Positions 29,324 through 60,711 of a stretch of 64,000 bases of DNA are shown piece after piece; positions within the stretch are counted from its first letter, which is position 1; every line of letters begins with the position of its first letter. The notes under the pieces are model-generated. The model made no database searches and was not told the origin of the DNA. It saw nothing but the letters and a program-made list of their open reading frames with translations. The translations under genes were made by a program, and so were the position numbers. Source of the stretch: Periplaneta americana. Its lineage: Eukaryota > Arthropoda > Insecta > Blattodea > Blattidae. The stretch is from contig NC_091128.1 in assembly GCF_040183065.1 (NCBI RefSeq), forward strand, positions 171,589,244 to 171,653,243, given 5' to 3'.

Positions 29324-29371
<48 letters not shown>

Positions 29372-32300
29372 TAACAGGCAACATAAACGTTTTTCGCAGG
29401 TACAGGAATCCTATTAATCCCCTATCACATCTTTCTTCTCCTTTTTCACTCTACCTTTGAGACAGTCAAATGACACAACAGAAAGCAATGAAAAATATTG
29501 CCTAGCAGTATTCATTTCTGAATACAGTATTTTTGGTAATTAATTTTATGTTATATTGTCAAGGTCCAGCTGGTTCCCGTATATGTAAAGTTAACGGTCA
29601 TTGCTGTAGCGTTATATGAAAGCCATGATCAAATCCCACTTAGGGTATAAATATTCGTTTCAACAAACAAATGTTCAATGTAATGTTCAGTGCCCGGTGG
29701 GATTTCTGTTGTCCCCATATTACAGGAATCCACCATGTATCAAGTCAAATAAGCTTTATAGAAGAGGAAATCATTCTCGCCAGGTTTAATGTCTGTTACC
29801 TTCTGCTGTAGATTGTTGTTGGACGTGACGGAGAAGTGGGAATCACAGTAGAGCACAGCCCTGCTGAGGCAGTGCCCATCGCCATGCTCATGAACTTTGC
29901 CTTGGATTTCATGTAAGTTATCAACTCGCATATCTGAATTATTGGCCTTCTTAACACTATAGACTCTGATTGCCACAGCTGTGTTGTTTGCCGGACATTC
30001 TTTCATTGCTAAAAGAATACTTGACAGTTTACTAATAAGTTGCAAATACTAGTACTTTTGTGGAATACAGTCATGGAACTTCACTGGTAATGTGTAAGTA
30101 TGGAGTGGTAAAGTACAACGGCAGAAAACTCTTTTATGGAACAGAAACTCTAGCAATTTACACTCCTTATTACAGAATTAACTTGTAATGTACGCCATAC
30201 CTTTGTGGAATAGGCCTCAGATAATAGACAGATATGGGTATATTCCATGCTTTCACATTTACAGATCTAAGAAGTGAAAATCTTTACGAATTGTGATATT
30301 ACCTTTAAAATCCTTCATGGGTCCAAGTATTTTTGACACCTTTAATTTTTTCTTCTTCTTCTTTTTATTTATTTAATTATTTTTTATTTAATTTTTTGTT
30401 TTCGTATGGTCCATGTCTCCGATACACAATTATAAATTCGCAGTTTTAATTTTTTTTAAAGTAAGTATAGTTTTTAGTATGTATGTAATGTATTGTGTGG
30501 GTGTGTACACATTTGCACGCATGTATATACTTATGTCGCATACATGCAGTAGGTACCAGTACAAGAAGCCTGAAATTGCCAAGCTCTAATAGATAATAAA
30601 TAACATAAGTGAAAAAAAAAAAAAAAAAATTCCTGGCTTCCCAGTATTGTTCATACAACAAAGTTATCTTTAATGCCAAGAAGTTCTGCAGATTTTCCGG
30701 ATCTGTTACTTCGTGTTCGTTTGTTAGTTACAAAGTAAATTAGCATAATTTGAAAGTAAAAGGCAACACAATAGAGACTGGTGCACAATTGAAACAGAAC
30801 AATTTCTGTTTGAAAACCAACAGAAATCTGTTATAATATAACGAGTAGAATTACATGATGTTCTTTTATTTGCATAGTGCATTTCTTTTTAATTTCTTCC
30901 TTGATTGTGTTTTCATAGTTTATATAAATCATCCATAATTGGAAGTATTTTAAATAGAACTCTTTATTTGTTATTTCAGGGCGAAGCTGCCAAAAGGCAC
31001 ATCTGGAGACAGTTCTAAATTTCCAGAAATAGAAAAATTGGAATTCAATGTTAGTTCAAATATCAAGAAAGCTATCGAAGTTGCAAAAACCAATTTGGAT
31101 AAGTAAGTATCACACGGAAGTCAATTTCATATATTTTCTGTAATTACAGAATTAATTCTTCATTGTTCATGTCAGTGTAATGCAGAAGTGTGACTTTCAC
31201 TTGTCATTAGAGAAAATAATGTAATGCTACAATGTATAGACTTAGAATGCTCTTGGCCAAACCAAGAAATGGATTCGGAACACCTCAAAATCTGTGCTTC
31301 AGTGGCTGGTCATGATAATATCTTTGAAAAATATTGGAGTGCAAGAGGTCAAATGACTTTATTGTCAAACGCCTGGCATTAGAAACCAACCAACCAACCA
31401 GAATGCTCTTGGCAATGACACATAATTTATTTATTCTTGTAAAATTGTGTTTAATTTTCTTTGTAACATTTCTTTGTATAATATATCACCAATTAAGAAA
31501 AATTCTTCGTTTTTATTTTTATTTGTATCCTTTGTTTAACATTATAATATTAATTTACTTATTTTAAATTTGTTATTATTATCTGTAGTAATGTCACGAG
31601 AGGTCTGAGATCTGCCGATAAATTCACGAGCGAAGCGAGTGGATATCTGGGAAATCTCAGACCTCGAGTGACATTTATTAGGACTATTTCGTGAATAAAA
31701 TAAAAATTTAAAAAATATATCCCTAAAATTCGATCACAAAATGTTAATAATTGTATATTAACGAATACTTAACCTATTCAGGCATTGTGAAGTTGAAATA
31801 CTTGTAGATGAATATCGATTATTGCAATAAAGAAATTCGATGTTATTATTCAGTAATGCCAATTGCGAAAAGCGAAATACAGGTTTAACAATGTTAATTA
31901 CATGTACTGCACTTTTCTGTTATTATTATAACAAATACATTTTCATTATCTGCTGAAATCATAATTTAATTTAACAGTAACAGTGGGGACAGCTATATAT
32001 TAATGCTTATGTATTCACAGCGAGACATGTTGCTACACAGTGAAGCCATCTCGGTATAGATAGGCCTAATTAAAACACGAATTTTATTACGCCATACGAA
32101 AGGCAGTTTGATCAAAGACATTATTACTATGCAAGGTCTTTGAGTTTGATATGCGATGATGTTACATAAATTTGAACGTCTATTAATTGTTTAATTTCAA
32201 TACAAATGTTATAAGCTACAATTTTATAGGTTACGTTAGGCCTCCTGTGGAAGCAGGACCAATGTCAGCTGTGCCTTGTTTCGACCGTTACTTACAATGA

Positions 32301-35300
32301 GTGCTACACGAAAGCAATTTTTATAGCTTGACAAACGCATTCTCGCTGTAGTGTGTAACGGAACTAAAGCTGCATCTACACAGTTCAATATTCCAATCGC
32401 GTATGCGTGCAATCTGGGAAGAATATTGAAAGAATCAAGTTTAAAAGGTACGTTCAATTAAGATGCATAAAGATTTAGTGTCTACATAGTGCGCCGTTTT
32501 GAATGTGGTCTTCACTGCGTAAATATATTAATTAATATTAAATATCAATCTTGCATTCATTGCTTTAAAGTTGAAAGAAAAGTTTAACCGTGTAGTTGCT
32601 TCTTAATGTATTCATGATCATTAATTTACGGGGAAACAGTTGGCGACAACGACTAAACAAAAGAATGAACATGCGATAAATTGATAGCAATAAATCTAGC
32701 TGCAGAAATTATCGCAAAGTCTGACTATGATTGGTTGGAATTCAAAATTTCATTACACTTAATTGGTCGAAAATGGAATGACGTCATATAAACGAAATAG
32801 TCATTGTAAATATTGACTTCAATTTATATTATTGTATTATTAGTGTATCAATTGTCCTAGGCTATTATTGGCCAATGGCTGTTGTCTATAAAATTAATAT
32901 CATCATAAATGAATAAAAAATAAATAATTATTTGTTTTTTTTTTTTTAATTATTATTTCAGACTAGTTGAAGACACTGCTTTCTTGTCAAGTACATACCC
33001 AGGATATGGAAAAAATAAAATTAAAGAATTTAAATTAAGTCCCGACAGTTACGTCCAGATGGCACTTCAGTTGGCTTATTACAGGTAAATTACCTAAATG
33101 TAAGATTTCCATGGCTCCATTATCACTAATAGTGTTATGAACAATGCATATAGCAAAGGAGCAAAAAATTTAAACACAAATTATCAGTCACTATCAATTA
33201 GTAGGGGTCATGTATCTTTGAACATCAGAATACTGTAGAATTTCGATTATCCATCTCTCGAATTACTGACCATCTATTATCCAATGATCTCGCTTTTTCC
33301 CCCAAATTAATCACGAGAGCCTAGCTAAAATTCGATCTACATGTGAGTGACATTGACGATAGTGCGTGATTCTCGTGTTTCACTGTAAACTGCACTTGAA
33401 TCAGCAGAGAAACTCATGAGGTTTTGAGCAAGAAGATGACACTTCATTCCAGACATTGTTTTACTTCGGAGAATTAGAATGGAGATTAAAAAGAAATAAA
33501 ATTGCTGGTAGTAAAGTTCAGAAAAAAAGTGATGCAGACTTTTTTTATAAGGTAAGAACAAGCACAATGGGTTATTTGTCTTTTTCGATTAACTATTCCT
33601 CCCTTTTATTATGACAGATAATCGAGGTTCTACTGTATGTGTATATCTATCTGTTCGTGCATACACTTGCATGTGTTGTCTGCATGCAACCACTTGACCA
33701 CTGACAACGAACTTGGAGAAAAAGTTGTTGTTGCTGCATGTGAAATGAGTACCAGAGTGCTTTCAGACACTTAATACTGTATATTGTTTCAGACTCCACA
33801 ACGAACCGGCGGCACATTATGAATCAGCTGGTACTCGTCTGTTCTATTTGGGTCGTACAGAAACTATCCGTTCCTGTTCAAGAGAGTCTGTTGAATTTGC
33901 AAAGGCAATGCTGGATTCTGCATGTCCTACCGAGGAAAAGAAAAATGCTCTCTTGGCAGCTATCCAGTACCATAAGCAATATGCTACAGAGGTAAATAGA
34001 GGCGCTTATTGCATGTTTGAGAGACAACACTCTGTTTTATTGAGATATGAATAACTGTGCCATTATTAAGAAAGGACATGTCAATATTATTACTAGACCA
34101 CAGATTTTTAGACTGGAATAGGATAGGTTGTAACAATTTTATGTAGACAGAGACCCCAAAATGTTGGGTAGCTGCCCTTTTTTAAAGGGTAACCAGTAAA
34201 AGGTTCAGCCTACTGATCAGTCAATAAAAAGAAAATTTAATTTCTTAATTAAAGAGTTCCCCCCTCCCCTCCTCTGAATATTAATTTTTATTATTATAAT
34301 TTATTTATTTTAATCGAGGTGGCTATTAAAAATTAAGAGAGTAGCTATCTCTGACGGGGTCATTTTTTATTGTTCATTTATATGATTGTACAAATGATAA
34401 TTTACTATATGCAATGAATCTCTCAAAACATTCCTAAATGTATGCAACACGAGAAACTCTCGAGTGACGATATTGCCTAACACTAGGTGCATTAAAGAAC
34501 GTATGTTTGAAGACCTCAGATTTTTAGGATCGAATAGTATAAGTTGCAACAATTTTATGTAAAAATCCCTAAATGTATGCAACACGAGAAACTCTCGAGT
34601 GACGATATTGCCTAAAACTAGGTGCATTAAAGAACGTATGTTTGAAGACCTCAGATTTTTAGGATCAAATAGTATAAGTTGCAACAATTTTATGTAAAAA
34701 TCCCTAAATGTATGCAACACGAGAAACTCTCGAGTGACGATATTGCCTAAAACTAGGTGCATTAAAGAACGTATGTTTGAAGACCTCAGATTTTTAGGAT
34801 CAAATAGTATAAGTTGCAACAATTTTATGTAAAAATCCCTAAATGTATGCAACACGAGAAACTCTCGAGTGACGATATTACCTAAAACTAGGTGCATTAA
34901 AGAACGTATGTTTGAAGACCTCAGATTTTTAGGATCGAATAGTATAAGTTGCAACAATTTTATGTAAAAATCCCTAAATGTATGCAACACGAGAAACTCT
35001 CCAGTGACGATATTGCCTAAAACTAGGTGCATTAAAGAACATATGTTTGAAGACCTCAGATTTTTAGGATCGAATAGTATAAGTTGCAACAATTTTATGT
35101 AAAAATCCCTAAATGTATGCAACACGAGAAACTCTCGAGTGACGATATTGCCTAAAACTAGGTATGGAACACGAGAAACTCTCCAATGACGATATTGCCT
35201 AAAACTAGGTGCATTAAAGAACATATGTTTGAAGACCTCAGATTTTTAGGATCGAATAGTATAAGTTGCAACAATTTTATGTAAAAATCCCTAAATGTAT

Positions 35301-38111
35301 GCAACACGAGAAACTCTCGAGTGACGATATTGCCTAAAACTAGGTATGGAACGCGAGAAACTCTCCAATGACGATATTGCCTAAAACTAGGTGCATTAAA
35401 GAACATATGTTTGAAGACCTCAGATTTTTAGGATCGAATAGTATAAGTTGCAACAATTTTATGTAAAAATCCCTAAATGTATGCAACACGAGAAACTCTC
35501 GAGTGACGATATTGCCTAAAACTAGGTATGGAACACGAGAAACTCTCGAGTGACGATATTGCCTAAAACTAGGTGCATTAAAGAACATATGTTTGAAGAC
35601 CTCAGATTTTTAGGGTCGAATAGTATAAGTTGCAACAATTTTATGTAAAAATCCCAAAATGTATGCAACACGACAAACTCCCGAGTGACGATATTGCCTA
35701 AAACTAGGTGCATTGAAGAACGTAAGTTTCAACACCTCTGATTTTTAGGCTTGAATAGTATAAGTTGCTCATCTGAAGTTGCCCTTGGGTGCGGGTTCGA
35801 TCCCTGCTTGGGCTGATCACTTGGTTGGGTTTTTTCCGAGGTTTTCCCCAACCGTAAGGCAAATGCCAGTTAATCTATGGCGAATCCTCGGTCTCATCTC
35901 CCCAAATACCATCTCGCTATCGCCAGTCCCATTAATGCTAAATAACCTAGTAGTTAATACAGCGTTGTTAAATAACCATCTAAAAAATTCAAGTATAGAC
36001 GTTCCACAAAATCATTGGGATTTCCTTAAGTCCACTGTCAATATTTTATTTTTTGGGAGTGGAAGAGAAACAGGGACAGAGAGAAAATTCGGCACTTTGC
36101 AGAGAGAGATACAAGAGATACATAGGTAGAAGGATAAGGATAGTGGCAGATGTAAGTTTTTGTTTCTAAAATTAAATAGTTAATGTTTGACATTTCTTTT
36201 TCAGGCTGCACTGGGTCGCGGTGTTGACAGACATTTAATGGGATTGAAGCTTGCAGCTATTGAAAATGGGAAGGAGGTTCATCCTCTTTTCAAGGACCCG
36301 TCATATGTGCGCAGTACACACTTCAAAATTACTACCAGCCAGGTGAATTGCTGTTCTATTTTCTTCTTCTTAAGGGGAGACGCCACTGAAAACCATGAAA
36401 CATTTTCGAGAAATTTTTATTGCCTATTTCACTTCTTTAGAATGTATATTTTTATACGCCAAATGAATTTAGTTCAATCCTGATTACAAATATGTTTAAA
36501 AATGTTTTTTAATTAAGTCTCTAAAGGGGCGTGACATTTGAAAAGCTGTCAAAATTATTTTTTCAACAAAGAATTCTTTTTTACAAATTCCTGATTACAA
36601 ATCTAATAAATTTTTGTTCTAAGTTGACTCCATGAAGTTACTAGATGAATGTAGCAGAGGAGAATTTTAATAGGTACATAAATATTCATTTTACTTTCAA
36701 ATCCATTTTTCCATAAGTTTATTTTTTTTTTATTCAACACCAACTTTTTTATGCCATATATTAATCTATCTTAATGAAAATTTTACTGCAAGAATTTATG
36801 AGGTAGCTACATGTTTCTATGCATTTATTTTATAAGAAATGCTGCTAGTTTATTGTATTAATTTTTTTTCATGAATTATAGAAAAAATAACATATTAAAA
36901 ATTTCAGAATTTTTTTTGAAAGTGAATAAATGAGATATTTTATAAGATGAATGCATAGAAATGTTTCTCTATGTCTTGTGAATGTAACCAAAAAAAAAGA
37001 AAAGCTTAAAAATTTAGATCTTCTACTAAAAACTTGGGTTTTAAAATATTCCTAAAAAAATAAAAAACCAAAAATATTTGGGAGTTCAAAACTTTGGTTG
37101 AAAAAAATGATTAGGAATGCTAGTAAGCCTCTATTTTATACATGCATGTTTATTGCAAATTTTATTTCACTCTTTCAAGTTCTCTTTAGTTTTGATTATT
37201 TATTTATTTTTATTTATTATTAATATTAATTTGCTAGCCAACAACAGTTACCCAAAAATAGACTAGCACTAGTAGATACAGTAATGGTACAAGAGTAAAA
37301 CGAACAATAAAAAGTTACATTGATAATGTTGACAATTTTTTACAAGTAGGCGTACACAAAACTAAATCTATAGATTAAATTGCTAAAATTAAAAATATGT
37401 TAAAAATAACAGAACAATAATAATGAAATAGTAAAGACTAAATAACAATGATATTAGTGGTAAATATGGGTGCTATTCATAGACATTTCGCTAGCCCGCG
37501 CTACGAGTGTGCTAAACTAGCCCCGGCTATCGACTGATTACTTGTACGGGATTCATATGATATCGTATCGCTAACACTGGTTTATGAATACGAAAAACAT
37601 TAGTTCGCTGATCATCCACCGGAAGCCCGCGCTAAGAATGTCTATGAATACGGCCCTATAAGTTTAAAGAAGTAAGTCTTTCCTGTAGAAAAACAGTCTG
37701 TACAATGAATGGATCGAATTCACAGCTTGCATGTTGGAATTTTTAATGCATCTGGAGACTAGGGAAACATATTTTAAATTTATATCATAGGAACACGAAA
37801 ACTAATGTTGTTTATGAAAGAGTCACAGGTTATATCACCTTTAAAACCTTGCATAAGAATACATAATAGAGTTCATGACATCTAGCATATAAGCTTTGGA
37901 CAATTAAAGTAATCCCACATTATCTCTTAACTGTACGCAGAATCATTGGGCAAAAATCTGTTTGAACATAAGGATATGATTTTTTTTTCAGTTGTAATAA
38001 CATTCCAGACTAAGATACACAGTGAATTTCGTTCTCACTAATCTATACTAATAATAAAACTGTAACCAAAATTTTTCTGGTAATTTTCGCTTAAAAAAAA
38101 AAAAAAAAAAA

Positions 38112-38155
<44 letters not shown>

Positions 38156-46205: not shown

Positions 46206-47935
46206 CAGAGTTAACTATATTAATGTAACTCAGTGTTACAGGATTAGAAAATGCCAAAGAACTTCATTATCTTAATCATCAGTGGTCAGCATTGCAAACC
46301 ATAAACCATAATCAGAATTTTTTTTAATTACAAGTTCGGAATATTTTTTTCAACTAACAGTAAGCTACGAAATAAAATTTGTTTATTTTTTAGAAGTCGT
46401 CTAGCATTGTCATCAAGATATTCAAATATGAACCACTATATTGTGATTAAGAGGCGGATTTCTATGACATGTCATATTCTTTCCTATGGGCTTTCAGACT
46501 GATTTAAACTTGATTCCAAGTATTCTGAAGAAATTGGGAGGGGTTTGTTGGGCATATAAATACATAATTGGGCAGCTTTTAATTTTGTAGCATATTTAGT
46601 ACGAAACTATATATATTAATGTATTTTGGGAATAATTGTATGCATATTTAGGTTTTTTCAGTTTTATAATATATTTAGTAAAAATTGGCGTCATAATGTT
46701 ATATTTCTCATATTTAATGCATTCATTCAAACCATAATGAGCCGTGGCAAAATGTAATACTATGAAAGTTTTTCAGGAAAGCTCTAAAATACCTATATTT
46801 TCGTAGAAATGTAATACTGTGAAAGTTTTTCAGGATAGTTCTAAAATACCTATATTTTCGGAGAAATCATTTTTCAGGATAGCTCTAAAGTACTATATTT
46901 TCACAGAAATGCAAAGGAAAGAAAGTATGCATTGATTGTGGAATGTGGGGTTTCAAGTAGCAGGTAGGCTTCTATCGTTTGGCCTTGTAAGCGAAAAGAT
47001 GCTGTACACAACAAAACTGGGTTTCCTTACAATTTTCAACTTTCTCCTCCCTCTTGGTCACTCCTTGTTTCTTCAGTACCGATATCTTTCCAACATGCTA
47101 TTCTAAAGACAGTGGACATTTGAAGTAATGTGCTTAAATATAACATCCAGCTGGTTAGACATTGTATTTTAATCAATGTATAATGCCAAAATTTAAAAAA
47201 AATCTAACATACATGTGTTATTAATAAAGTCAAATTTCGAATTTTATTGGTCACAATTTTATGGTTTTAGGTCATAAATGCGTGCATATATCTTAGTTTT
47301 TTAGGTCAGAGAAATCCGCCCCCTAATTATGATATACACAACATACAATAATGAAAATGAATAAGGATTAGGGAGATCTCTTGTATTAATAAGTTAAATT
47401 CAAGTTTTGTCAGTTACTATATTATTAATTTGTTTGTTGAAGACACTGTGACAAATTAACTGTAGCTTAAATATGAATGTTTGATTGTGCAATATATTAT
47501 TTGCAGGTTAAAATATATGCAACTGTATATTTGCAATGTTTATTTCAAAGCCTTCCAACACTTAAAAACAAGGCCTATAAAAATAGTACCGTAAAGATAA
47601 TAGAATAAACAAGAGAGAAGAAAAAAAAAATGAAAATGTCCAACAATCACTTCATTTCTACAATACTTTAAACTAATTGGCGTTAATTAAGTTTAACATA
47701 TGGGCATTTATTATCTAGTCATCCCATAAATTGTACATATATTTTTGTAAGTGATGCGATGATGAATTTTTTATAGTTTTTTTTTTCTTTTTGTATGAAA
47801 GAATGTTCTTACAATGCTCAGATCACTGAGGACGTTTTATCAAATTAAAGTAATTGTAAGTATTGATTTATAACCTATCAGAAGTTATTTTGACGTTGTT
47901 ATTAATGTTATGACAAAATTTTCTTCTGTCCACAG
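46206..47935. other. Sequence before CRAT-B exon 2, nothing coding
   Basis: Apart from the tandem repeat at 46749 I recognise nothing. I looked for a CRAT-B start exon ending in phase 0 and found no convincing one. Confidence 0.4.
46749..46912. repeat. Imperfect tandem repeat of about 55-60 bp, three copies
   Basis: TTTTTCAGGAAAGCTCTAAA, TTTTTCAGGATAGTTCTAAA and TTTTTCAGGATAGCTCTAAA occur in succession, each followed by TATATTTTC and GAAAT. Confidence 0.85.
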
Positions 47936-48060
47936 GCAAGCAATAGAAAGTCTGCTTGTTTTCCATATCAGTTCTCTCTAATTGCAAGAAAGTCAACAAC
48001 ACAATTTTTACCATCATTGCCAGTGCCAAACCTGAAGAATACAATGGAGAAATATCTCAG
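47936..48060 (+). CDS. CRAT-B exon 2 (N-terminal)
   Basis: TCTGTCCACAG|GCA...CTCAG|GTTTCT (a non-optimal donor). Encodes IARKSTTQFLPSLPVPNLKN then TMEKYLR, matching the PVPPL N-terminal motif of the family. It opens in phase 0 and closes with AG, exactly like CRAT-A exon 2, so it joins SVKPTLTEEEY. No Met precedes the motif, so a start exon is required upstream. Confidence 0.82.
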
Positions 48061-49394
48061 GTTTCTTTAAATATCTCAAATGAAACGCAATTAAAATACT
48101 ATTTATTCCATTATAGTGGAAATAATATTTAGAGAAAATATTTTGGGCATACGTAACTTTTCTTTCAGATCTGAACAATAGTTCTTATCTTTTTCCTCGC
48201 TCTGCATTCCAGTGTGTCCTCTTGTATGCCTCAAAAACCGTATTGATCTTATTTAAGCGTTTATTTTGCAACTGGGAGGCACTTTAATGATTAAGAGAGA
48301 AAGTGCGCATAATGTAAAAATACTTATGTAGGGAGGTGCTAGGTTAGGACAAGGGGTAATTTCTCAGAATGTGTCACTGCACATAGACAAATTTTACATT
48401 AAACCTAAACTTAGTGTGCGTATACAGGTATACTAAAAACCGATTTAACAAACCTAACCTAACCTAACATAGTACCAGTATAGGGATTCAAAAAATAATT
48501 TGTTAAATTACGGCACATAATGTTATGCATAATTGGCTATAACTAGGCCTACCTAGTTTATTAATTTATAATATTATAATCATAAAATGAAAGTATGAAA
48601 CAACTTCTCAGTTCTCATACTACAATTATTAAATAATTTTTTAATGTCTGAACTGCTCCTATTTTCATCTTTTTTATAGTAGCCAAATTTTTTAAGATGC
48701 ACTTCTCTGCAAGCTTCATTGAAGAATCTCAGCCTGATCAAAAACTAACCAAACTTTCTGTACACAAAACATGAGAAACTAAAAACGATTTTTGAAGTCT
48801 GTAATGAGATAAATGACAATTTGTCAAAACGTTACATTATACTGGTACTTACACATTCATTTTCTTTTGCTAATTGATTATATATTAAGTATTTTAAAAA
48901 CGCAATAATGCCGTGCATTCCAAGATAATCATTTCTGTCAGAGGCAGAGGACGAGTTTGTACAATAGAATAATGAGTCAACATTGCTGACCACTTTAGCT
49001 CACGGTTTCGTTGATAATTTTGGTGGGTTTTATATTTCGCCCCTGTTCACATATATAATATCTGAGATTTCACTTAAATATTTCCTAATCTGTTCACCAT
49101 TGCTGAACAGCTAGAGTATCGACATTGGTAACCCGGGTTCGAATCCTGGTGAGATCAAGTGTAATTTATGGTGGGCAAACAGTGCTTAGTGGTAGATTTT
49201 TGCGGAATACTCCCGTTTCTCCTGCCAAAATTTCACCATTGCTTCATTAATCATTACAATCATGTCGTGTTACATAGTTCGAATCCCATGATGCACCTAG
49301 GACAGTGCCTATAATGACAATAAGGACTACAGCATCTTTGGATTGTTCATAGCTGAGGACCCTTAGGTGAATGATGCAAAACCAAGTATGCACT

Positions 49395-49459
<65 letters not shown>

Positions 49460-52400
49460 TGGAAGTAATATAACTCTGCAGATTTTAATAGCTTATTCTT
49501 TGAATAGAGCACAACACAAAATTATAATACCATATTAGTCCCAAATGAGTAATTTTACCCTAAATGTTAACACTATTTTACTCGATAAGTAGGCTACTAG
49601 CCATACATTTCTGAATTTTACTCTTATCAATAGACAAAAATAAAATGGACGGTTTTCTTGCAAATTAAATAAGAAGATTAACACGCATCATTATTTCCTA
49701 CCATTAGGAAGTCAATGAATCCTATTGTGGTAACCAAGGAATGGAATTATCCACTTAATTACAAAATGCATAATGGTTTTTTTTAGTTTATTTTAAGATG
49801 TTAGGTACAACTTACAGCAGTAAAATTTTTTAAAATATTCAACATTTTTTTCCTCCATTACAGCATCTTGTACATAATAAAAATTGGTAGGGCATATGTT
49901 TAAAACAATGTCCTTCTGCTATATGAAAAAAGTATTTTTACGATTTAAAAAAAATTATTTATATATATATATTTTTTTTTTTCAAAATTCAATATGGTGG
50001 CAGTTTACTGTGCAGTGATGAAGTTTTTTCCTCATAACTTATAAACTTGTTAACTTTTTCATGTTCTCTCTCTTTTATTTTATTGCTGAAACTCATGTTT
50101 ACAATATCATGCTCTTTGAACTACTTACTTACAAATGGCTTTTAAGGAACCTGAAGGTTCATTGCCACCCCACATAAGCCCGCCATTGGTTCCTATCCTG
50201 AGCAAGATTAATCCAGTCTCTACCATCATATCCCACCTCCCTCAAATCCATTTTAATATTATCCTCCCATCTACGTCTCGGCCTCCCCAAAGGTCTTTTC
50301 CCCTCTGGCCTCCCAACTAACACTCTATATGCATTTCTGGATTCGCCCATACGTGCTACAAGCCCTGCCAATCTCAAACGTCTGGATTTAATGTTCCTAA
50401 TTATGTCAGGTGAAGGATGCAATGCGTGCAGCTCTGCGTTGTGTAACTTTCTCCATTCTCCTGTAACTTCATCCCTCTTAGCCCCAAATATTTTCCTAAG
50501 AACCTAATTCTCAAAAACCCTCTTGTAAATAATAATAAAAATTGGTAGGGCATATGCTTAAAACACTGTCCTTCTGCTATATGAAAAAAGTATTTTTACG
50601 ATTTAAAAAAAATTATTTATATATATTTTTTTCAAAATTCAATATGGTGGCAGTTTACTGTGCAGTGATGAAGTTTTTCCCTCATAACTTATAAACTTGT
50701 TAACTTTTTCATGTTCTCTCTCTTTTATTTTATTGCTGAAACTCATGTTTACAATATCATGCTCTTTGAACTACATTCCTTAATAAATATTTTTTCTTTA
50801 TTTTGTGTTAGAAGAAAATACCGATATTTGACCATTTTTTAATTAATTTATTTTTTAACAAACAATCTATCAAAGGTAGAGAAATAATCTTGCATCGTAT
50901 TGTAGATATGACATGCATAAATACACACAAAAAATTTCATCACAGAATGTTGGATAGTTTTTTAGTTACGGTATGTGGGAAATGCTTCATCATTGCACAG
51001 TGAACTCAATTTTGAAAAATAAAATGTAAATAATTTTTTTAAGTCGTAAAAATATATATATTTTTTTCATATACCAGAAAGACAGTGTTTTATACCTACT
51101 AATTTTCATTATTGTACAAGATACAGTAATGCAGGAAAAAAATGTTGAATATTTCCAAAATTTTACTGCTGTAAGCTGTACCTAACCCCTTACTGTATTC
51201 TATTAGCCCCTTCAATCTACAGAGTTATATCACTCCCACTTTGTGTGTATGTATTATAATTTTAAACAAATCCAAGGAGCCTGTATACTTGTGACTGTTG
51301 GATCAGATTGTAATGTGTCATAAATAAACTCAGCCTGTTAACTGTTTCAGGTCAGTAAAACCTACGCTGACAGAAGAAGAATATTGCAGAGCCAAAGAAG
51401 CTGTTAAAACATTTCTTACATCGAAGAATGCCGTGGGACCTCAGTTGCAAATTATGTTGGAAGAAAGAGCAAAGAATACAAGTAACTGGGTACAGAATGT
51501 TTGAACATCAAAACACGACCAGCATCTCTGAATTGAAACCTTCTATTACATATCCAGTTTAAAGTTCCAATATTTTAACTTGCTATGCTTCTTTACAGTT
51601 ATATGAATGGTGGATCAATGACTTCTTCTTGAGTGATCGTTTGCCACTGGTTGTGCATTCAAATCCAGCCCTCATAATGCCCCGTCAGAAGTTCAAACAT
51701 CCAGAGATGTATATTGGATTTGCTGCCAAAGTCATTTCGGCTGTTCTTTGTTATAAAAGCCTAGTAGATGGGTAAGAATAATTTTAAATGTTGTAATACA
51801 AGTGGAATAAGTTGTTCTATTTACTCCAGATATGGTCTCAATGTAGATTTTCCTGGACTTTTGCTAGTAAGACGAAATTCATTATCTCCAGTCATAAGTA
51901 GAATGATGAACAAATAATAAATTGGTGAGAGAAATCGTTATGGTGTAAAAAACATTTAATTCCCTTTATGCATTATTTGGTTTAATTAGATGCATATACA
52001 GTAAAACCTGTTCAAGATGGAAGTGACATGGTCCTAATTTTTTTTTTTCCGTTTTGGACAGGTTTCCGTATTATTCATTTGTGAAATTAAAATGGAATAT
52101 TTTATCATTCATATACACGAAAAACAAAATGGCATGCCGCAAACTGCTGAAGTACAAAATATTCCATTTAACACTACTCACATTAAATCAGCTTTCTGTC
52201 GCTTATTCCGTTGGTGAATCATCTTGATGAAAATGTCATTTTCTGTATAAATGTTATCGTAACTCACTCATTAAACATTACTAAAGTTTACTAATCTCAT
52301 TCTATTTAATATCTAACACTATACTATAATACTGGACTGTATGTCATGTACATTATTAATTATTTGGACTAGGAGCCATCCATTAGAAGCCTTGAATTCT

Positions 52401-55400
52401 GATTTATCTAATTTCTTTGCCAGTTCAATGGCTTGCTTTGCAGAATAGATCCAGAAATTGACATGTTCTTTGAAAGGTCATGAAGAACCCACTCCCATAA
52501 CAGTTCATTATGATCTTTATTTTTTAAGTGTCACACTGTGTTTTCCACAACTGAACTTCAACATTTTTTCACATACACTTCGTTTCTAATTTTTCTTTAA
52601 CTCGATAACTTTTATTTCATACTTAATGTTAATGCCACATTTTACGCAACTTTTTTTTTTTTTACCAGGTAATCACTACACTTATGCTCTAGCTACGACA
52701 GTATACGAATGTGAAGCATTGAAAGAAAATCTTTGAAGGGACTCGTCTGCCTAGTCAATTTTGTAAAGCAAACTTGTTTTTATCTTAGTGACCTACATAT
52801 TTCGTATATTCCTTGAAATTATACGCTGTTTCAAAATAAAGTTTACATTAAAGCAGTGTGCCCAAAATATTATTTCTGTTTTGAACAGTAGCAGGCAGTT
52901 TCCGTTTCCGCATTGGACAGCTATTCAGGAAAAATTATACATAATACATACGAATTTTGCAGGGACCAATAAATTGTTCTGAAATAGACAGGATTCCGGA
53001 TTATTCAGGTTCCGATTTGAACAGGTTTCACTGTAATTGATATTGCATAAATTTACATAAAATAGCTGTATGTATATTATAATGATTTCTAGTATTACTT
53101 TTATATTTACATGAATCCAGAATTTTAAAGTGATATGGTTCAGTGATTCATTCAAGCATCAAAGAATGTTTATAGGAGAGGTGGATAGAGAAATCTCAGC
53201 TTTAGTCTAGGTACGGTACAGGGTCCTTAATATAATGGCTGCCTTGGTGACAGGTCGATTCCTTCATTCATTTAGTGTTCTGCCCAAGGGCAGGTCTTTC
53301 ATTGCAAACCTATCTTTCTCCAATCTTTCCTGGGCATATCATTTTTTTTTTCTTTTCAGCAATGATATTCCTGTGGACACAGCTAGAGGAGATCCTTTGG
53401 ATATGTCACAGAACTTCAACCTTTTTGGTACTTGTCGCATTCCAGCTGTTTCAAAGGATACTCTTCTTATTTTGGATCCATATAAACCACCAAATCACAT
53501 AATTGTAGCTCATAATAATCATGTAAGTTACCTTTTTTTCCCTGATAACTTTTATAATTGTATGTAGTGGATAATGTCAGCTCAGTAGCTGTACAATAAG
53601 AGTCCATCATTTCATTGCCTTTGATCGCAGTGTTTTGTTTATGTTCACTGTACGGATATCCCGGGGAAGGGAGGGAAGAGACATGAGAAAGAATTAGCAG
53701 GTGCAGTCACACCACAGGAACATATCGACATGTGACTCACTGGCAGAGTTAAATTGAAAGCTGATGAACTGTTGATCCTAATGAGTGCACCATTCCCTGT
53801 GGTGGCCATTGGAACTCGTACTCAAAAATAAATGTAGCTGGGTCTTGCACGACAAATGTTTAGGCACTGTCTTTGTTTCGTCAAGTTCTTGTTTTCAACC
53901 TATGGACCTCTGTCACGAAGTTTGGCTGCTACGGTGCATACATTTTATCTTTCCACACTCGCGAAGATAGGGCAGAATTGGCAGTGCACAGTGCAGCTGT
54001 TCACATGCGAGAGTGGAAAGATAAAATGTATGCATTGTACTAAAATCATGTGGGTACAGTTTTTCAGGGTCCCCGTACTTGATTCATGTGAAGAACCCAT
54101 AAGTGTGAATCAGATAGAAGCACAATTGCAAATAATTTTGCAAAATTCAAAGGATTATGTAAAACCTATAGGGATTCTGACATCAGAACACAGGGACAAA
54201 TGGGCGGTAATACATCAGGAGTTAATTCAAGATAAAGGTAAGTGTTCTAACTCATAATGTAGTCTCCTTTATGAAGAAATTTAAAGATATCCTTTGACTG
54301 CTAACATTGAGTAAAGAAAAATTCAACTGACAAATTTAATTAAGTAATCCAATACATGGGGTCAAATCAAGTACCCCTAAAATGTAATGGAACTTGGGTT
54401 ATCGTCAGTATACAAAACTTTAACTGTTGTCAAAATGACGATAAATAATTTTAACTCATGTTAAAGATATAATTCATTACGAAAATAAAATACTGTATAA
54501 GAATACAGGTATAAACATATTTTGTAGGTTACGATATAATTTTGAAGAAAATTATGTACTGGTATTACAAGAAATATCCCTTAACACTTAAGTGAATCAT
54601 TTGTAGGAGAAAATAGCGAATGCATGACTTCAGTATCAAAGAGTTGCCAACGCTAACCTTTTGTCTTTTGAGTGGGACGAGAATTAATTGGATCCCAGTT
54701 ATGTTGTCCCTCAAGACAAACCTGTCACAGGGACAAAATCATAGGTCTTCAAATCACACCCCACCACTTTCAGAGAAGGCTTCTTTTACGCGACGTAAAT
54801 TTCTGATACAGAACACACAGCTTTACTTTCGAAGGAGATTATGCTAAAAAGTTTTTATTTCCCTAAAAAGTCAATTACGTTTGAATTCACGAATCAGTGG
54901 CAAGCATGGTGCTACCACAGTCTACTATATACAGTCACGAAGCTTGGGTTTTGAGGGTGCTAGAAACAATAGACTGTGACGGTTCTATTTTGCATTGCCT
55001 GTAATGAGGCGATATTAGCGGTCCTAGTGGTGAGAAACTATCTAATGTTTGCATATTTTCTACGTATTGAGCTTCGCGACTGTATATACTAGACTGTGGT
55101 GCTACTCTAGACCACTGGTTCTGAACTATTTTATGATGATATTTTTGTTATCTCTCAAGACCCTAGTAATTTTTAACAGCAGATAACTGCAAATCTCAAA
55201 CATGATGCCCTTATGCTTGTAATGTTTAGAAAATCGAGAATGCCTGAAACAAATTGAAACGGCTTTATTCCTTGTGTGCCTGGATGGGAAGAGTTTTCAA
55301 CAAAATGCCTCCCAACCAATGAATCTACAATCGTTGCAAGCTATGAAAATTTTACATGGATGTGGTGCTCAAGATAGTTCCGGTAATCGTTGGTTTGACA

Positions 55401-56498
55401 AAACTCTTCAGGTAAGTTTGCCAACATTATTACACAATTGGGTTTGAAAAGTAAAAGTTTTTTTTTTGAATTTTTTTTGGCACTTTTCCAAATATTATGA
55501 TAATCATTGCATACATCTCTGAAATTCGATTTTTTTATTACACCTTATACTGTAAAGACGCAACAGACAAAACACAGGGTTTCCATTCTTAAGTTGCGCA
55601 TGATGTCATTCTTTCACACCCACAGATTAGATTAGATTAGATTAGAATGACTTGAAGCAGGAGTCGGGTTAGCTATACCTTAACACTGAAGCCTTTTGGC
55701 TTATTGTATTTCTCCTGTATTCATTATTCCTATGTAAAAAGTTTTGTTCCTCTGATGAGTTCCAAATAACTTGTTTACGAGGTTTTGCTTTTGGAGATTT
55801 TCTTCTTGATTGATGCAGTCAAAAAGATTGTCTCTCCTGTTGGCTAATGCATCACATTCGAAGATTATATGTGAGAATGATTCGTCCTCTTCATTACATA
55901 ATTTACATAGCGGTTCATCTTTAAAGATATCCATTGTGTGCAGATGTTCCCTCAGATGGCAGTGACCACATATAATTTTTTGTGGACTTACAATGGTATC
56001 CTTGACCAAAGTTGCACAGTATCTTCCAAGATAAATAATACTTACTACTTTTGGCTTTTAGAGAACCCAGAGGTTCATTGCCACCCTCCCTATCCTGAGC
56101 AAGATTAATCCAGTCTCTACAATCATAACCCACCTCCCTCAAATCCATTTTAATATTATCCTCCCATCTACGTCTTGGCCACCCCAAAGGTCTTTTCTTC
56201 CTTAGGTCTCCGAACTAACACTCTGTATGCATTTCTGGATTCGCCCATACGTGCTACATGCCCTGCCCATCTCAGACGTCTGGATTTAATGTTCCTAATT
56301 ATGTTAGGTGAAGAATACAATGAGTGCAGTTCTGCATTGTGTAACTTTCCCATTCTCCTGTAACTTCATCCCTCTTAGCCCCAAATATTTTCCTAAGCAC
56401 CTTATTCTCAAACACCCTTTGCCTCTGTTCTCTCTCAAAGTGGGAGTCCAAGTTTCGTAACCATACAGAACAATCAGTGACAGATAATTGGGATTTTG

Positions 56499-56558
<60 letters not shown>

Positions 56559-59500
56559 TTTTTTCTCTTTTATTTTGGCAATCTGGAATGAGGCCGAGGG
56601 TTTGCCATACATTACCTGACATTTGAGTAGAAGGTATGAGAATTTGATTTAATTCTTTTTTTATTTTTTATTTTAGTAGGTTATTTTACGACACTTTATC
56701 AACAGCTTAGGTTATTTAGCGTCTCAATGAGATGAAGATGATAATGGCGGTGAAATGAGTCTGGGGTCCAACACCGAAAGTTACCCACCATTTGCTCATA
56801 TTCGGTTGAGGGAAAACCCCGGAAAAAACCTCAACCAGGTAACTTTCCCCGACCGGGAATCGAACCCGGGCCACCTGGTTTCGCAGCTAGACGCGCTAAC
56901 CGTTACTCCACAGGTGTGGACGATTTAATTCTTCTCTGAACCTTTTGGTATATGGTAGACAACTCACTTCTCAGACAGTTTCCGCGTTAGATAATTTCCG
57001 TTTTATTCAGGAAAAATTACACATCATACATAACTTACGAATTTTGCAGGGACCAGTAAATTGTCCCGAAATAGACAGGATTCCGGATTATTCAGGTTCC
57101 GAGTTGAACAAGATTCACTGTATATGTTATAATATGTCATTCATTCATTTAGTGTTTTGCCCAAGGACAGGTCTTTCACTGCAAACCCAGCTTTCTCTAG
57201 TCTTTCCTATTTTCTGCCTTCCTCTTAGTCTCCTCACATGATCCATATATCTTAATGTCGTCTATCATCTGATATCTTCTTCTGTCCTGAACTCTTCTCC
57301 TGTTCATCTTATAATATGTATTCTGTCATTTTAGCTTGTGATTGGCTGTACAGGAGAATTTGGTTTGTTACTGGAACCAACTGCTATAGGCGTGCAGGTC
57401 ATTATGAACCTCCTGAACTATGTGATGGATTCCATGTAAGTTTATTTTTCTCGTATAAGCAATTATTACATACATTTGGTATTTATTTATTTAAAATACA
57501 TTATATAATATAAATATTTCCAAAGCATTTGTGCTAAGAACGAAATATATCATGAGCAGAGACAGAATGCTAATTCTGTTTTTTTTCTCCTTTTCATAGA
57601 GAGAAGAAGCAACACGATCTGATGCCACCAGAATCGGTGCAGTTCCCACAACCTGTAAGACTTAACTTCAAGTTAGGTTGCAAGTTTGATGACGCAATTA
57701 AGAATGCGGAAATCAAGCTCAAACAGTAAGAAATATTTCGTGAGTCTCTGTTTAAATTTGTGTTAAATTTGGTGTCAATTAACAGCACAGTTATTTATAT
57801 TCAGTGATACTTCATTTCATTTCAGATTGGTGGACGATACTGATGTACTGTTCTACACGTACACTGGATATGGAATGGACTTCATAAAATCCAACTGCTT
57901 GAGTCCTGATGCCTTTATACAGATGGCTATTCAACTCGCATTCTATAGGTTAATAAGTCATGATAAAATATCATTTAATTTTTATTGAGTACAGAATTAT
58001 ATTAGTAACAGTACTGCTAATGATTATACAAGTAGGCAGTTCCTCAATTCAAACTCTTTTCAACATTCTCAGTATATAAAGTATATAGGAAACGTGTTGT
58101 GAGGCAAAAAACATCTGAACACACAAGACGAACAAACAAATACAACGTGACAGGTGTTTACAAATTAATATGCGATAGCTATAATGACTTCTACACTGAA
58201 CACGGTCAAAGAGCTTTTCAAACATGATACAAGGAACAAATCATAGCCATAATCAAATTACATAATACTTTCATCTATGCAGAACACATCACCAACTCCA
58301 ACCACAACTACAGGAATATAGAAACAGACATGGAAATTCTACACATTGAATCGAAAAGCCAGAAACTAAACAGTAGTACGAAACTTAGACATACAGAAAC
58401 ACACGTGCAACACATCCTCAATACTCAGCTGAATTTCAGAACACACCCTTTTCGACACTACACTACCAATCATAAATGCTCTCTCCACCTGCATCTACAC
58501 ACCTCCCCCCTCAAGACACCAACAAGAAGAAACCAGAAGAAAGAACAACACCTCACTACGATCTGAAGAAGACATACATTACCACTGAAACCAGACATTA
58601 ACGTAAAATACCATAATAGTTTCAATATTAACACAGAAGAGTTAAAAAAGTTGTTAATTTAACAGATAATCAGCAAAAAATTACTTTTAGATTTTCACGA
58701 AAATACACATTTTCAGCATATCTGATATCCAGAAGTTGTTATGATGTAATGTACTGCTATTACCTAACTGGTTGCGTAATATGAACTACACATAAAATAA
58801 AATAAAATGGAATTGATTTTACTTATTATAAACATTAACAACAATAATATGTTCACTGTTTGTTATAAACATTCAATTGCAGAATTTACAGCATCCTCTT
58901 TTGAACTCATTTTAACAATGTTTGTTTATTTATCCTAGTACTGTTATTCTTCTGTTATACAGTAAACAAAAACCTATCGTGTTCAAAAGTAATAAAACAA
59001 ACATAAACGAATCGCCTCTAGCAGGAAGAAACTAATAATAATACAATCTCCTCTCCACAAAAGACATTTCCAAAACTTATAAAAATAATACAATTACTTT
59101 TATTTAAAAAATAATTTTTTATCAAAGTGGATAAAACTTTGTATGATATATTTGTCGTAACTTCATATTACAATACAAATCTGGCTTTCAGGTATAGCTC
59201 TCTGTGAAGCTGACTTGAATAATTTCAAGGGAAAAATTGTTCCAAGGCCGGGTATCAAACCCAGGATCTTTGGCTGAGCAGGCCAATGCTCTACCACTGA
59301 GCTACCCAGGAACTCTACCAGGCCCAGGCTCAATTATTGCCTTTTATCCACATATTTCAAATGGGCTGAAAAGAAATCAGAGGCCCAGCATTGAATGCAC
59401 ACTTTCTGTATGACTTAAATTTATGGTTTCCTGTTAACAAACAGCGACGTGCATTACCAAATCTGGCTTTCAGGTATAGCTCCCTGTATAGTCCTACTTG

Positions 59501-60711
59501 AATAATTTCGAGGGAAAAATTGTTCTGGGGCCAGGTATCGAACCCAGGATCTTTGGCTGAGCGTGCCAATGCTCTACCGACTGAGGAATAATTGAGCCTG
59601 GGCCTGGTAGAGTTCCTGAGTAGCTCAGTCGCTAGAGCATTGGTGCACTCAGCTAAAGGTCCCGGGTTTGACACCCAGCCCCGGAACAATTTTTCCCTTG
59701 ACATTATTCATATTACAATACTCGGCTGGTTATCAAACTCGTATTGTCATATGAAATGTTACAATACTCATATCATAAATAACTATTATATATTTTTTTA
59801 TAATTAAAATTAGCATATACTGTATTTTCTTGGGATTAAAGTTATTACAGCACCTTTGTTAATTAAAAATTGGACCAGTGTTCACATAAACTTTTGTACC
59901 AGTACCCAAAGTGATCTCTAGAATAAACTTCATTGCTGATGTTCGTGAATCTGTACATGCACAGAATTTCTTTTATATATCGTTAGAAAATCCCTTCAGA
60001 TTTTTTTTTTGTTTCCAGGGTGCACTTTGAAACAGTGCCAACACACGAATTTGCATCTATAAGAAAATTTTGTCATGGACGCACAGAAACTATAAGAACA
60101 CTTTCTTTTGAATCGGTTCACTTTGTGAATGTAATGATTGACAATTCTAAAACCACAAACATGGAAAAAATGCAGGCATTAAGAGCTGCTATTGACTGCC
60201 ATGTAAGAAATACAAAAGAGGTAAGTTTAAAGTTGCAAGACTTAAAAACATATACATGGAGGGCTGTAAACTAATTTTCTAACTTTTGATGTAGTAGTAG
60301 TAGTAACAATGGCGGTGATGGCAACAGTTTCTTAATGTATCCGGCAGGATGCTAACAGCATAAGGTCTACTTTAGTCTTCAGTTAGTGTTCCTTCTAACA
60401 CAGGAGGAATTATTTTGACCAGTTTTCATTACAGATGCCTGCTAGCCAGTACCTAGAGCTGAGGTGTTATCAGTATGTGTTGCAGAGTTGAGTCTTGTGT
60501 GACTGGCATTGATGACTAAAATATTTATTTTCCTTAGGAAATTCGTTTTGTAACTGCACTTTCACAATTACAGGCTAGTAGTGGTAAAGGTATAGACAAT
60601 CATCTGTTTGGACTTAAAATGGTGGCAATTCAAAACGGAATAGATGTACCTGATTTCCTAGTAAATGATGTATTTATTCGAAGCACAAGTTGGAGACTGT
60701 ACACAGGACAA
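47936..60711 (+). CDS. CRAT-B: tandem CRAT paralogue with lost active site (3' end outside window)
   Basis: Exons: 47936-48060, 51351-51489, 51599-51771, 53360-53522, 54060-54237, 55230-55411, 57335-57435, 57600-57725, 57826-57948, 60019-60220, 60574-60711. Joined they give 550 codons without stop or frameshift, and exon phases match CRAT-A throughout. Fold motifs persist (LPVPNLKNTMEKYL, EWWIND, CRIPAV, IGILTSEHRDKWA, SSGNRWFDKTLQ, LSPDAFIQMAIQLAFY, GRTETIRT). Yet the catalytic His is Pro (57377-57379), Lys419-equivalent is Met (57875-57877), Tyr452-equivalent is His (60044-60046), Arg518-equivalent is Asn (60598-60600) and the STS motif is YTG (60700-60708). It is probably enzymatically dead or altered. 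The start exon is unknown and the last exon (VPDGY region) lies beyond 64000. Confidence 0.88.
49105..49380 (+). mobile_element. tRNA-derived SINE
   Basis: AACCCGGGTTCGAATCCTGG is a near-perfect B box. The body with GGTGGGCAAACAGTGCTTAG and GCTGAGGACCCTTAGGTGAA precedes the (TA)n run. Confidence 0.65.
49397..49457. repeat. (TA)n microsatellite
   Basis: About 30 TA dinucleotides at the 3' side of the SINE. Confidence 0.95.
49870..50775. repeat. Direct repeat of about 250 bp flanking the LINE fragment
   Basis: The left copy (about 49870-50122) and right copy (about 50522-50774) both run from CTTGTA...ATAAAAATTGGTAGGGC to ATCATGCTCTTTGAACTAC with only a few differences. The LINE sits exactly between them. 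Confidence 0.88.
50123..50525 (-). pseudogene. LINE 3' fragment (same family as 43452-44690)
   Basis: The minus strand reads [20 protein letters not shown] and [20 protein letters not shown], ending in GCCATTTGTAAGTAAGTAG. About 400 bp, truncated at its 5' side and closed by a stop near 50500. Confidence 0.9.
51351..51489 (+). CDS. CRAT-B exon 3
   Basis: AACTGTTTCAG|G...AACTGG|GTACAG. Encodes SVKPTLTEEEYCRAKEAVKT and LQIMLEERAKNTSNW. Same boundaries and phase as CRAT-A exon 3, with three extra codons. Confidence 0.95.
51599..51771 (+). CDS. CRAT-B exon 4
   Basis: TTCTTTACAG|TTA...GATGG|GTAAGA. 173 nt as in CRAT-A. Encodes LYEWWINDFFLSDRLPLVVH and MPRQKF. WW and the RLP.VVHS.P strand are kept. 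Confidence 0.95.
51999..53033. mobile_element. pogo/Tigger-like element, about 1 kb
   Basis: TA-flanked. The left end is CAGTAAAACCTGTTCAAGAT; the right end read inward is CAGTGAAACCTGTTCAAATC. No transposase recognised. Its 3' part (GGGACCA..AAATTGT.C..GAAATAGACAGG) recurs at 56960-57123. Confidence 0.82.
53262..53335 (+). repeat. Dispersed repeat fragment close to CRAT-B exon 5 acceptor
   Basis: CATTCATTTAGTGTTCTGCC through CTCCAATCTTTCCT recurs at about 57136-57210, just upstream of another CRAT-B exon. Family not identified. Confidence 0.6.
53360..53522 (+). CDS. CRAT-B exon 5
   Basis: TTCTTTTCAG|C...AATCAT|GTAAGT. 163 nt as in CRAT-A. Encodes NDIPVDTARGDPLDMSQNFN, FGTCRIPAV and HIIVAHNNH. 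Confidence 0.95.
53935..54034. ncRNA. Near-perfect 28-bp-stem hairpin beside a splice acceptor
   Basis: Arms 53935-53962 (TGCATACATTTTATCTTTCC...) and 54007-54034 (inverse) match at all but one position of 28, with a 44-nt loop. It lies in CRAT-B intron 5 on the transcribed strand and ends 25 nt before exon 6. The shape fits a pre-miRNA-like hairpin, a MITE relic or a splicing structure; sequence alone cannot choose. Confidence 0.4.
54060..54237 (+). CDS. CRAT-B exon 6
   Basis: GTGGGTACAG|TTT...TAAAG|GTAAGT. Encodes FFRVPVLDSCEEPISVNQIE and KPIGILTSEHRDKWAVIHQE. The acceptor has almost no polypyrimidine tract; a TACTAAAAT branch-site-like sequence is at 54038. Two codons longer than CRAT-A exon 6. 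Confidence 0.92.
54238..55229. other. CRAT-B intron 6, nothing recognised
   Basis: No repeat termini or coding similarity seen. Confidence 0.35.
55230..55411 (+). CDS. CRAT-B exon 7
   Basis: TGTAATGTTTAG|AA...CTTCAG|GTAAGT. Encodes ENRECLKQIETALFLVCLDG and HGCGAQDSSGNRWFDKTLQ. HGGGSK of active enzymes is HGCGAQ here. Confidence 0.95.
55622..56010 (-). pseudogene. LINE ORF C-terminal fragment with (TAATC)n tail
   Basis: The minus frame 56009-55701 reads CGHCHLREHLHTMDIFKDEP, CKLCNEEDESFSHIIFEC, a zinc-knuckle-like LINE C-terminus. The tail CTAATCTAATCTAATCTAAT is at 55622-55645 on this strand. Confidence 0.8.
56030..56470 (-). pseudogene. LINE 3' fragment (43452-44690 family)
   Basis: [20 protein letters not shown] and [20 protein letters not shown] on the minus strand, with small indels breaking the frame. 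It abuts the previous LINE fragment tail to head. Confidence 0.88.
56498..56557. repeat. (TA)n microsatellite
   Basis: About 28 AT dinucleotides. Confidence 0.95.
56670..56930 (-). mobile_element. tRNA-derived SINE, - orientation
   Basis: Reverse B box GACCGGGAATCGAACCCGGG at about 56851. The body segment GAGGGAAAACCCCGGAAAAA is the inverse of that at 16690, and GTTATTTAGCGTCTC is at the 3' side. Same family as 16610-16830. Confidence 0.8.
56960..57123. mobile_element. Right-end fragment of a pogo/Tigger-like element
   Basis: Matches 52890-53033 (GAATTTTGCAGGGACCA, GGATTCCGGATTATTCAGGT) and ends at the TTCACTGTA terminus. Confidence 0.75.
57335..57435 (+). CDS. CRAT-B exon 8, catalytic His replaced by Pro
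   Basis: TGTCATTTTAG|CTT...TCCAT|GTAAGT. 101 nt, same length and phase as CRAT-A exon 8. Encodes LVIGCTGEFGLLLEPTAIGV. EHSPAE of CRAT-A aligns with EPTAIG: the general-base His codon is CCA at 57377-57379 and the following A-E pair is also lost. Confidence 0.94.
57600..57725 (+). CDS. CRAT-B exon 9
   Basis: TTTTCATAG|A...AAACA|GTAAGA. Encodes EKKQHDLMPPESVQFPQPVR and NFKLGCKFDDAIKNAEIKLK. One codon longer than CRAT-A exon 9. Confidence 0.92.
57826..57948 (+). CDS. CRAT-B exon 10
   Basis: TTCATTTCAG|A...CTATAG|GTTAAT. 123 nt. Encodes LVDDTDVLFYTYTGYGMDFI and CLSPDAFIQMAIQLAFYR. GYGM aligns with GYGK: the CoA-contacting Lys is Met. Confidence 0.95.
58100..58565 (+). pseudogene. Penelope-like element fragment, GIY-YIG endonuclease
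   Basis: The + strand from about 58146 reads GVYKLICDSYNDFYTEHGQR, AFQT, a TGA stop, then YKEQIIAIIKLHNTFIYAEH, ITNSNHNYRNIETDMEILHI and LNTQLNFRTHPF. This is the C-terminal GIY-YIG domain of Penelope-like retroelements (GVY for GIY, FYT for YIG, AEH and LNTQ.NF.TH signatures). No RT part is present. It sits in CRAT-B intron 10. Confidence 0.8.
58566..59163. other. AT-rich intron, nothing recognised
   Basis: No features seen. Confidence 0.35.
59177..59708. mobile_element. Composite SINE: two tandem units plus one inverted unit
   Basis: Units start AAATCTGGCTTTCAGGTATA at 59177 and 282 bp later at 59459, with minus-strand tRNA-like heads (GTATCGAACCCAGGATC reverse B box). The second unit is truncated and joins an inverted + strand unit (GAGTAGCTCAGTCGCTAGAG at about 59617, CCGGGTTTGACACCCAGC at about 59662). 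Flanked by a perfect 13-bp duplication CATATTACAATAC (59164-59176 and 59709-59721). Confidence 0.85.
60019..60220 (+). CDS. CRAT-B exon 11
   Basis: TTTGTTTCCAG|G...AAAGAG|GTAAGT. Encodes VHFETVPTHEFASIRKFCHG and RTETIRTLSFESVHFVNV. YES of CRAT-A is HEF; the GRT Thr is kept. Confidence 0.95.
60574..60711 (+). CDS. CRAT-B exon 12
   Basis: ACAATTACAG|GCT...GGACAA|GTAAGT. 138 nt. Encodes ASSGKGIDNHLFGLKMVAIQ and SWRLYTGQ. DRH is DNH and TTS is YTG. The next exon should open with the VPDGY-type C-terminus but is not found before 64000. Confidence 0.95.

Follow-up and report, generated by a model that had tools for sequence, protein, structure and literature searches.

In our study, a stretch of 64,000 nucleotides from Periplaneta americana (GCF_040183065.1, NC_091128.1:171,589,244-171,653,243, forward strand), hereafter called the window, was found to carry two carnitine acetyltransferase (CrAT) genes in tandem on the plus strand, CRAT-A at 3305-39102 followed by CRAT-B at 47936-60711. 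CRAT-B is likely to encode a pseudoenzyme which has the CrAT fold, is probably mitochondrial, is unable to carry out acyl transfer by the known mechanism and has been kept for a binding role.

The active site of CRAT-B

The replaced codons of CRAT-B align with H343, K419, Y452, R518 and S552-T-S554 (the STS motif) of human and mouse CrAT and with the same positions in the best 120 of 1146 database matches, which were used for all residue counts among relatives. The residues at these positions are Pro, Met, His, Asn and Tyr-Thr-Gly, respectively, and every residue call of the first-pass annotation was correct when the codons were read against this alignment. A further loss was not listed there, as the equivalent of Glu347 is Gly in CRAT-B and Glu in 118 of 118 relatives counted. 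His occupies the catalytic position in 118 of the 120 relatives, Gln in one (Diploptera) and Arg in one (lamprey), while Tyr at 452 and Arg at 518 are each found in 119. Y452 and R518 are taken here as carnitine residues, and Glu347, T465 and the STS motif are likewise given the roles usually ascribed to them in CrAT. CRAT-B retains K423, D430, E453 and T465; of the coenzyme A (CoA), carnitine and STS residues, it keeps just two, K423 and the Thr in the middle of STS. A review (PMC11852590) gives H343 the catalytic role, associates K419 and K423 with the phosphate of CoA and has the D430-E453 pair hold the site together. Since D430 and E453 are kept and H343 is lost, the structural pair appears to stay while catalysis goes.

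Losses are concentrated at the active site, with 7 of 11 such positions changed against 20 of 126 others (P = 0.001), a comparison which is not blind because the 11 include residues named beforehand; of the five sites named in that review alone (H343, K419, K423, D430 and E453), 2 are lost. The protein nevertheless belongs to the family by profile, matching PF00755 over positions 1-520 of 574 with 522.9 bits (gathering cut-off 22.3). The catalytic His expected of a PF00755 enzyme is Pro in CRAT-B and Gln in the Diploptera and Blattella orthologues described below. No stop, frameshift or broken splice site, as would mark a pseudogene, is present in its 550 codons, and an enzyme homologue whose essential catalytic residues are lost across orthologues is what the term pseudoenzyme denotes. 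As judged from these residues, CRAT-B would not be expected to catalyze acyl transfer by the mechanism known for the family.

The CRAT-B gene

The eleven exons, matching splice phases and 550 open codons reported earlier were all recovered in the spliced model, which has 1650 nt, consistent phases, 11 of 11 AG acceptors, 11 of 11 GT donors and zero stops. These exons are the counterparts of CRAT-A exons 2-12, with the entry phase of every exon agreeing with that of its counterpart. The exon at 47936, which had been taken as the first, stands as an exon; the gene probably begins one exon earlier, at a candidate first coding exon separated from it by an intron of 80 nt. This candidate is the nearest of 4 rows (3 donors) given by a simple ATG-to-donor scan of 39104-47900. 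In the joined sequence, the first 49 residues hold 8 Arg/Lys and 0 Asp/Glu, and this start probably resembles a mitochondrial presequence, from which we infer a mitochondrial location of the protein.

Orthologues in other cockroaches

Among the database matches listed for CRAT-B, the best is a Diploptera punctata protein annotated as hypothetical (P0001; 55% identity over 83%), for which the predicted structure has the carnitine acetyltransferase fold. A search with the second half of CRAT-B gave 22 matches, among them P0131 of Blattella germanica, which bears the name carnitine O-acetyltransferase and has local identities of 61% to P0001, 52% to CRAT-B and 37% to CRAT-A. In both P0001 and P0131, the catalytic His is replaced by Gln and Glu347 by Asp. 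P0001 keeps Y452 and R518 and has lost K419, K423 and STS; thus K419 is lost in CRAT-B and Diploptera, and it is unread in Blattella. In trees of 30, 32 and 23 rows selected from the proteins collected, the three sequences formed one clade with support of 98/98, 100/100 and 100/100, respectively. Diploptera and Blattella, both belonging to Blaberoidea in the NCBI taxonomy, pair within this clade (100/99) and the window's CRAT-B stands outside the pair. Because both orthologues carry Gln where the window has Pro, the loss of the catalytic His is probably ancestral to the three genes.

Among 253 columns readable in all three cockroach orthologues, 139 are identical in the three, and 19 of these carry a residue seen in less than 2% of 118 relatives. 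Nine of the 19 fall at positions 105-148 (CrAT numbering, via the Xenopus row), and this stretch would be the first candidate for a new surface on CRAT-B. No termite-named CRAT-B was found in the best 120 of 1146 matches, though two Cryptotermes copies of CRAT-A were, a weak negative as many rows have no species label. NCBIfam, a library covering bacteria and archaea, gave no match for five relatives.

Evidence on selection

Conservation was assessed on 88 columns with at least 97% invariance across 118 relatives, a set without P0001 and the lamprey protein P0079. CRAT-B keeps 67 of the 78 columns covered, P0001 58 of 76 and P0131 36 of 46; two stink-bug proteins described below keep 69/88 and 67/84, and the control proteins P0005, P0010, P0020 and P0116 keep 86/88, 87/88, 88/88 and 87/88, respectively. 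A comparison of low-entropy and high-entropy sites was used as a stand-in for dN/dS. Along the window branch, with Diploptera as reference, 3 of 72 low-entropy sites were changed compared with 21 of 36 high-entropy sites (P = 1e-5 against a uniform rate), where the Diploptera residue is assumed to be ancestral if it equals the family consensus, an assumption weak at variable sites. With Blattella as reference the counts were 2/49 and 6/13 (P = 0.005), and for Blattella since its split from Diploptera they were 1/41 and 9/19 (P = 0.02). Because so few strongly conserved sites have changed in comparison to the high-entropy ones, CRAT-B is, on these substitution patterns, protected by selection in the window's lineage. 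Neutral evolution was also simulated from the CRAT-B coding sequence, with 300 runs per divergence level. The runs to 75% identity, which stand in for the window branch by itself, accumulated 9.8 stops on average, and 0/300 were stop-free; in the runs to 57% identity the mean was 17.0 stops, again with 0/300 stop-free.

Proposed origin, role and alternatives

CRAT-B probably arose by duplication, consistent with its position in tandem with CRAT-A. The catalytic His-Glu pair would have been lost before the split of the window's lineage from the blaberoid cockroaches, probably by a change of His to Gln followed by Gln to Pro in the window's lineage, one base step each. This order would be the simplest path since a single base separates the Pro codon CCA from the Gln codon CAA. 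The CoA and carnitine residues would then have eroded along different lines in the separate lineages, with the scaffold retained. Protein-protein binding, as a regulator or scaffold, would be the likeliest action of such a protein, and our best guess is a binding or scaffold function within mitochondria.

A number of observations weigh against a maintained gene. The Diploptera branch since Blattella has 6/46 low-entropy and 2/12 high-entropy sites changed (14/110 overall, P = 0.63), and perhaps reflects relaxed constraint on that end branch. CRAT-B also evolves faster than its neighbour, with about 1.1 changes per column summed over the branches to its blaberoid orthologues compared with about 0.42 from CRAT-A to Cryptotermes, the two splits being not necessarily equally old. 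No near-identical protein is present among the listed matches of CRAT-B (best 55%), whereas CRAT-A has one at 639/641. The Blattella P0131 model is partial, seemingly retains intron sequence and spans only the middle of the protein, and parallel loss of the His in two lineages is possible. Finally, no recognisable counterpart of the C-terminal exon was found in 60712-64000; the profile of the C-terminal region scored at most 4.9 bits there and at most 3.5 bits in 39103-47900, compared with 106.4 bits for the CRAT-A exon. The window may end before this exon, and the frame claimed by the first-pass annotation to be intact is so for 47936-60711 and not, within the window, as a whole gene.

These points, apart from the state of the Blattella model and parallel loss, are those that a decaying pseudogene, with its frame still open by chance in this individual or species, would explain. 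Such decay is improbable in our view, as all splice sites are in place, the strongly conserved sites are protected and neutral simulations never stayed open even at 75% identity; moreover, if the His loss is shared, the gene has outlived catalysis since the cockroach split and yet its 550 codons are free of stops. A variant with very recent decay of CRAT-B is possible. The earlier suggestion of a maintained pseudoenzyme and not a simple pseudogene is thus borne out by the orthologues without His, their single clade and the protected sites of the window branch, and it fails to extend to the Diploptera branch, where no constraint was detected. An error of assembly or sequencing at the Pro codon, which is read from a single genome copy, is very hard to credit, given that ten more of the 97%-invariant columns are changed (11/78 in all) and that both orthologues are also without the His.

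Other functions than a protein-binding one may also be considered for a maintained CRAT-B. As a ligand sensor it would bind acyl-CoA, CoA or acylcarnitine without turnover and relay a signal, as CPT1C is reported to do with malonyl-CoA. The same fold in the Diploptera model, the retention of K423 and T465 by the window's protein and the CPT1C precedent within the family would fit with this, but the full ligand set survives in neither the window nor the Diploptera protein: K419 is lost and STS changed in both, K423 is lost in Diploptera only, and Y452 and R518 in the window only. Since the two lineages have lost different ligand residues, CoA or carnitine sensing is less likely, and the acyl-CoA or lipid sensor role put forward in the first-pass annotation is weakened. 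An enzyme that performs a new reaction or uses another catalytic residue is given still less credence than chance survival of a decaying frame. The CrAT fold is an acyl-transfer fold and the 19 columns peculiar to the three orthologues suggest that something new may be selected, but the catalytic position varies among them (Pro, Gln, Gln), as does the Glu position (Gly, Asp, Asp), and because of these differing replacements a new enzyme is not favoured.

Comparison with known enzymes

In comparison to carnitine O-acetyltransferase (CRAT, PF00755; PDB 1nm8 and 1ndb), CRAT-B shares the profile, the D430-E453 pair, the exon structure of the adjoining CRAT-A and, in the model of its Diploptera orthologue, the fold, whereas His, Glu347, Lys419, Tyr452, Arg518 and two of the three STS residues are replaced. 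Choline O-acetyltransferase (ChAT) has a signature of His, Asn at 518 and Val at 465, and Asn at the R518 position is presumably a ChAT-like state; in Trichogramma, P0145 keeps the His and carries Asn at this position with GRVD. CRAT-B shares Asn518 with ChAT, but it has Thr465 and no His and its ChAT score is below its CrAT score. Despite Asn518, CRAT-B does not show the ChAT signature. CPT1C retains its catalytic His. It is of the CPT1 branch and is described as residing in the endoplasmic reticulum, whereas CRAT-B is a CrAT paralogue with a mitochondrial-like start and no His. CPT1C is presented as a carnitine acyltransferase relative with little catalytic activity which regulates other proteins (PMC9873675), and it is the closest precedent that has been described for a regulatory member of the family.

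Other proteins without the catalytic histidine

A search with a Nezara fragment gave 4 proteins, including the full-length P0143 of Nezara and P0144 of Halyomorpha. In these pentatomid stink bugs His is replaced by Gly, Y452 by Phe, R518 by Asn and STS by NTY. CRAT-B is likewise without His, Tyr452, Arg518 and STS and groups with them at 86/84; unlike CRAT-B, they keep Glu347, have lost E453 and T465 and sit on a very long stem (1.78). Rare residues are shared at 5/34 columns between CRAT-B and the bugs, 5/25 between CRAT-A and the bugs, 4/22 between CRAT-A and the lamprey, 3/27 between CRAT-B and the lamprey and 2/29 between the bugs and the lamprey, while CRAT-A and CRAT-B share 9/26. The grouping with the stink bugs was not adopted in view of its support, the long branches and the few shared rare residues. 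CRAT-A and CRAT-B as sister clades were not rejected (p-AU 0.148), whereas a nonsense topology with the two window genes alone as a pair was rejected (p = 4e-31). The order of the bug, CRAT-B and CRAT-A groups was not resolved by the tree of 32 rows, with 84/96 for the nine rows. That CRAT-B and the stink-bug proteins form one ancient insect lineage of dead CrATs, older than the split of Blattodea and Hemiptera, with a conserved and undescribed non-catalytic mitochondrial role, is a doubtful proposal.

The lamprey protein (Lampetra planeri P0079) carries Arg at His343, Ser at Tyr452 and Ala at Arg518, keeps 80/88 invariant columns and is placed with vertebrates in the tree. Because of this placement its His loss is a separate one, and P0079 is probably an independent pseudoenzyme. 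The catalytic His has hence been lost more than once in the family, and CRAT-B may be one case of several.

Neighbouring features

In the adjoining CRAT-A the His, Glu, Lys, Tyr and Arg are retained and the STS position reads TTS; alignment to relatives bears this out, and all but the Glu had been noted before. Its tail is presumably of the peroxisomal type; the Diploptera CRAT-B orthologue P0001 ends in -EKK instead. The sixth CRAT-A intron contains Mariner-like transposase fragments at 23145-23881 (plus strand; by eye). A tandem array at 34426-35768, also in a CRAT-A intron, combines units of 135 and 47 bases with their sum of 182 bases, with copies 89-98% alike, and its minus strand carries an open reading frame (ORF) of 292 codons.

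Between the two genes, an ORF of 400 codons at 43486-44685 (minus strand) resembles, by eye, part of the reverse transcriptase of a non-long-terminal-repeat retrotransposon, and similar fragments were seen at 50162-50503, 55924-56214 and 56302-56667. The sole tRNA match, tRNA-Ser (gct) at 59239-59311 (minus strand), lies in repeated sequence of a CRAT-B intron and is possibly part of a short interspersed nuclear element. Downstream of CRAT-B, overlapping ORFs at 62654-63393 (minus strand) look transposase-derived by eye; they would sit in its last intron if the last exon is beyond 64000.

Table 1. Positions of the CRAT-A and CRAT-B features in the window (residue numbers of CrAT).
Feature	Position	Strand	Remarks
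CRAT-A gene	3305..39102	+	13 exons, 641 aa, C-terminus -AKL; 639/641 identical to database protein P0005
CRAT-A catalytic-His exon	29812..29912	+	VEHSPAEA
CRAT-A C-terminal exon	38881..39102	+	73 codons plus stop; profile match
CRAT-B probable first coding exon	47814..47855	+	MLRSLRTFYQIKVI; ends in phase 0, donor gtaagtat; inferred
CRAT-B exon (exon 1 of the first-pass annotation)	47936..48060	+	counterpart of CRAT-A exon 2, entered in phase 0
CRAT-B exon	51351..51489	+	spliced model
CRAT-B exon	51599..51771	+	spliced model
CRAT-B exon	53360..53522	+	spliced model
CRAT-B exon	54060..54237	+	spliced model
CRAT-B exon	55230..55411	+	spliced model
CRAT-B exon with former catalytic site	57335..57435	+	E-P-T-A-I-G; H343 to Pro (CCA) at 57377-57379; E347 to Gly
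CRAT-B exon	57600..57725	+	spliced model
CRAT-B exon	57826..57948	+	K419 to Met (ATG) at 57875-57877; K423, D430 kept
CRAT-B exon	60019..60220	+	Y452 to His (CAC) at 60044-60046; E453, T465 kept
CRAT-B last exon recognised	60574..60711	+	R518 to Asn (AAT) at 60598-60600; STS to YTG (TAC ACA GGA) at 60700-60708; donor gtaagt next

Significance

Pseudoenzymes are well known, foremost among peptidases, kinases and phosphatases, according to a survey of Drosophila enzymes (PMC12869072), in the main text of which the word carnitine is absent. Among the titles and abstracts listed in searches of the open-access literature, which also covered cockroaches, Blattella germanica, Periplaneta americana and stink bugs, no description of a maintained carnitine acetyltransferase without the catalytic His was found, nor anything on CRAT-B itself. 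The database name "Carnitine O-acetyltransferase" is carried by the Blattella P0131 and by the Halyomorpha protein, so metabolic models relying on these names could be in error. The role of a dead CrAT can be tested in these insects, as the adjoining CRAT-A has its catalytic residues in place and shares the intron positions, and the cockroaches carrying the gene can be reared in the laboratory.

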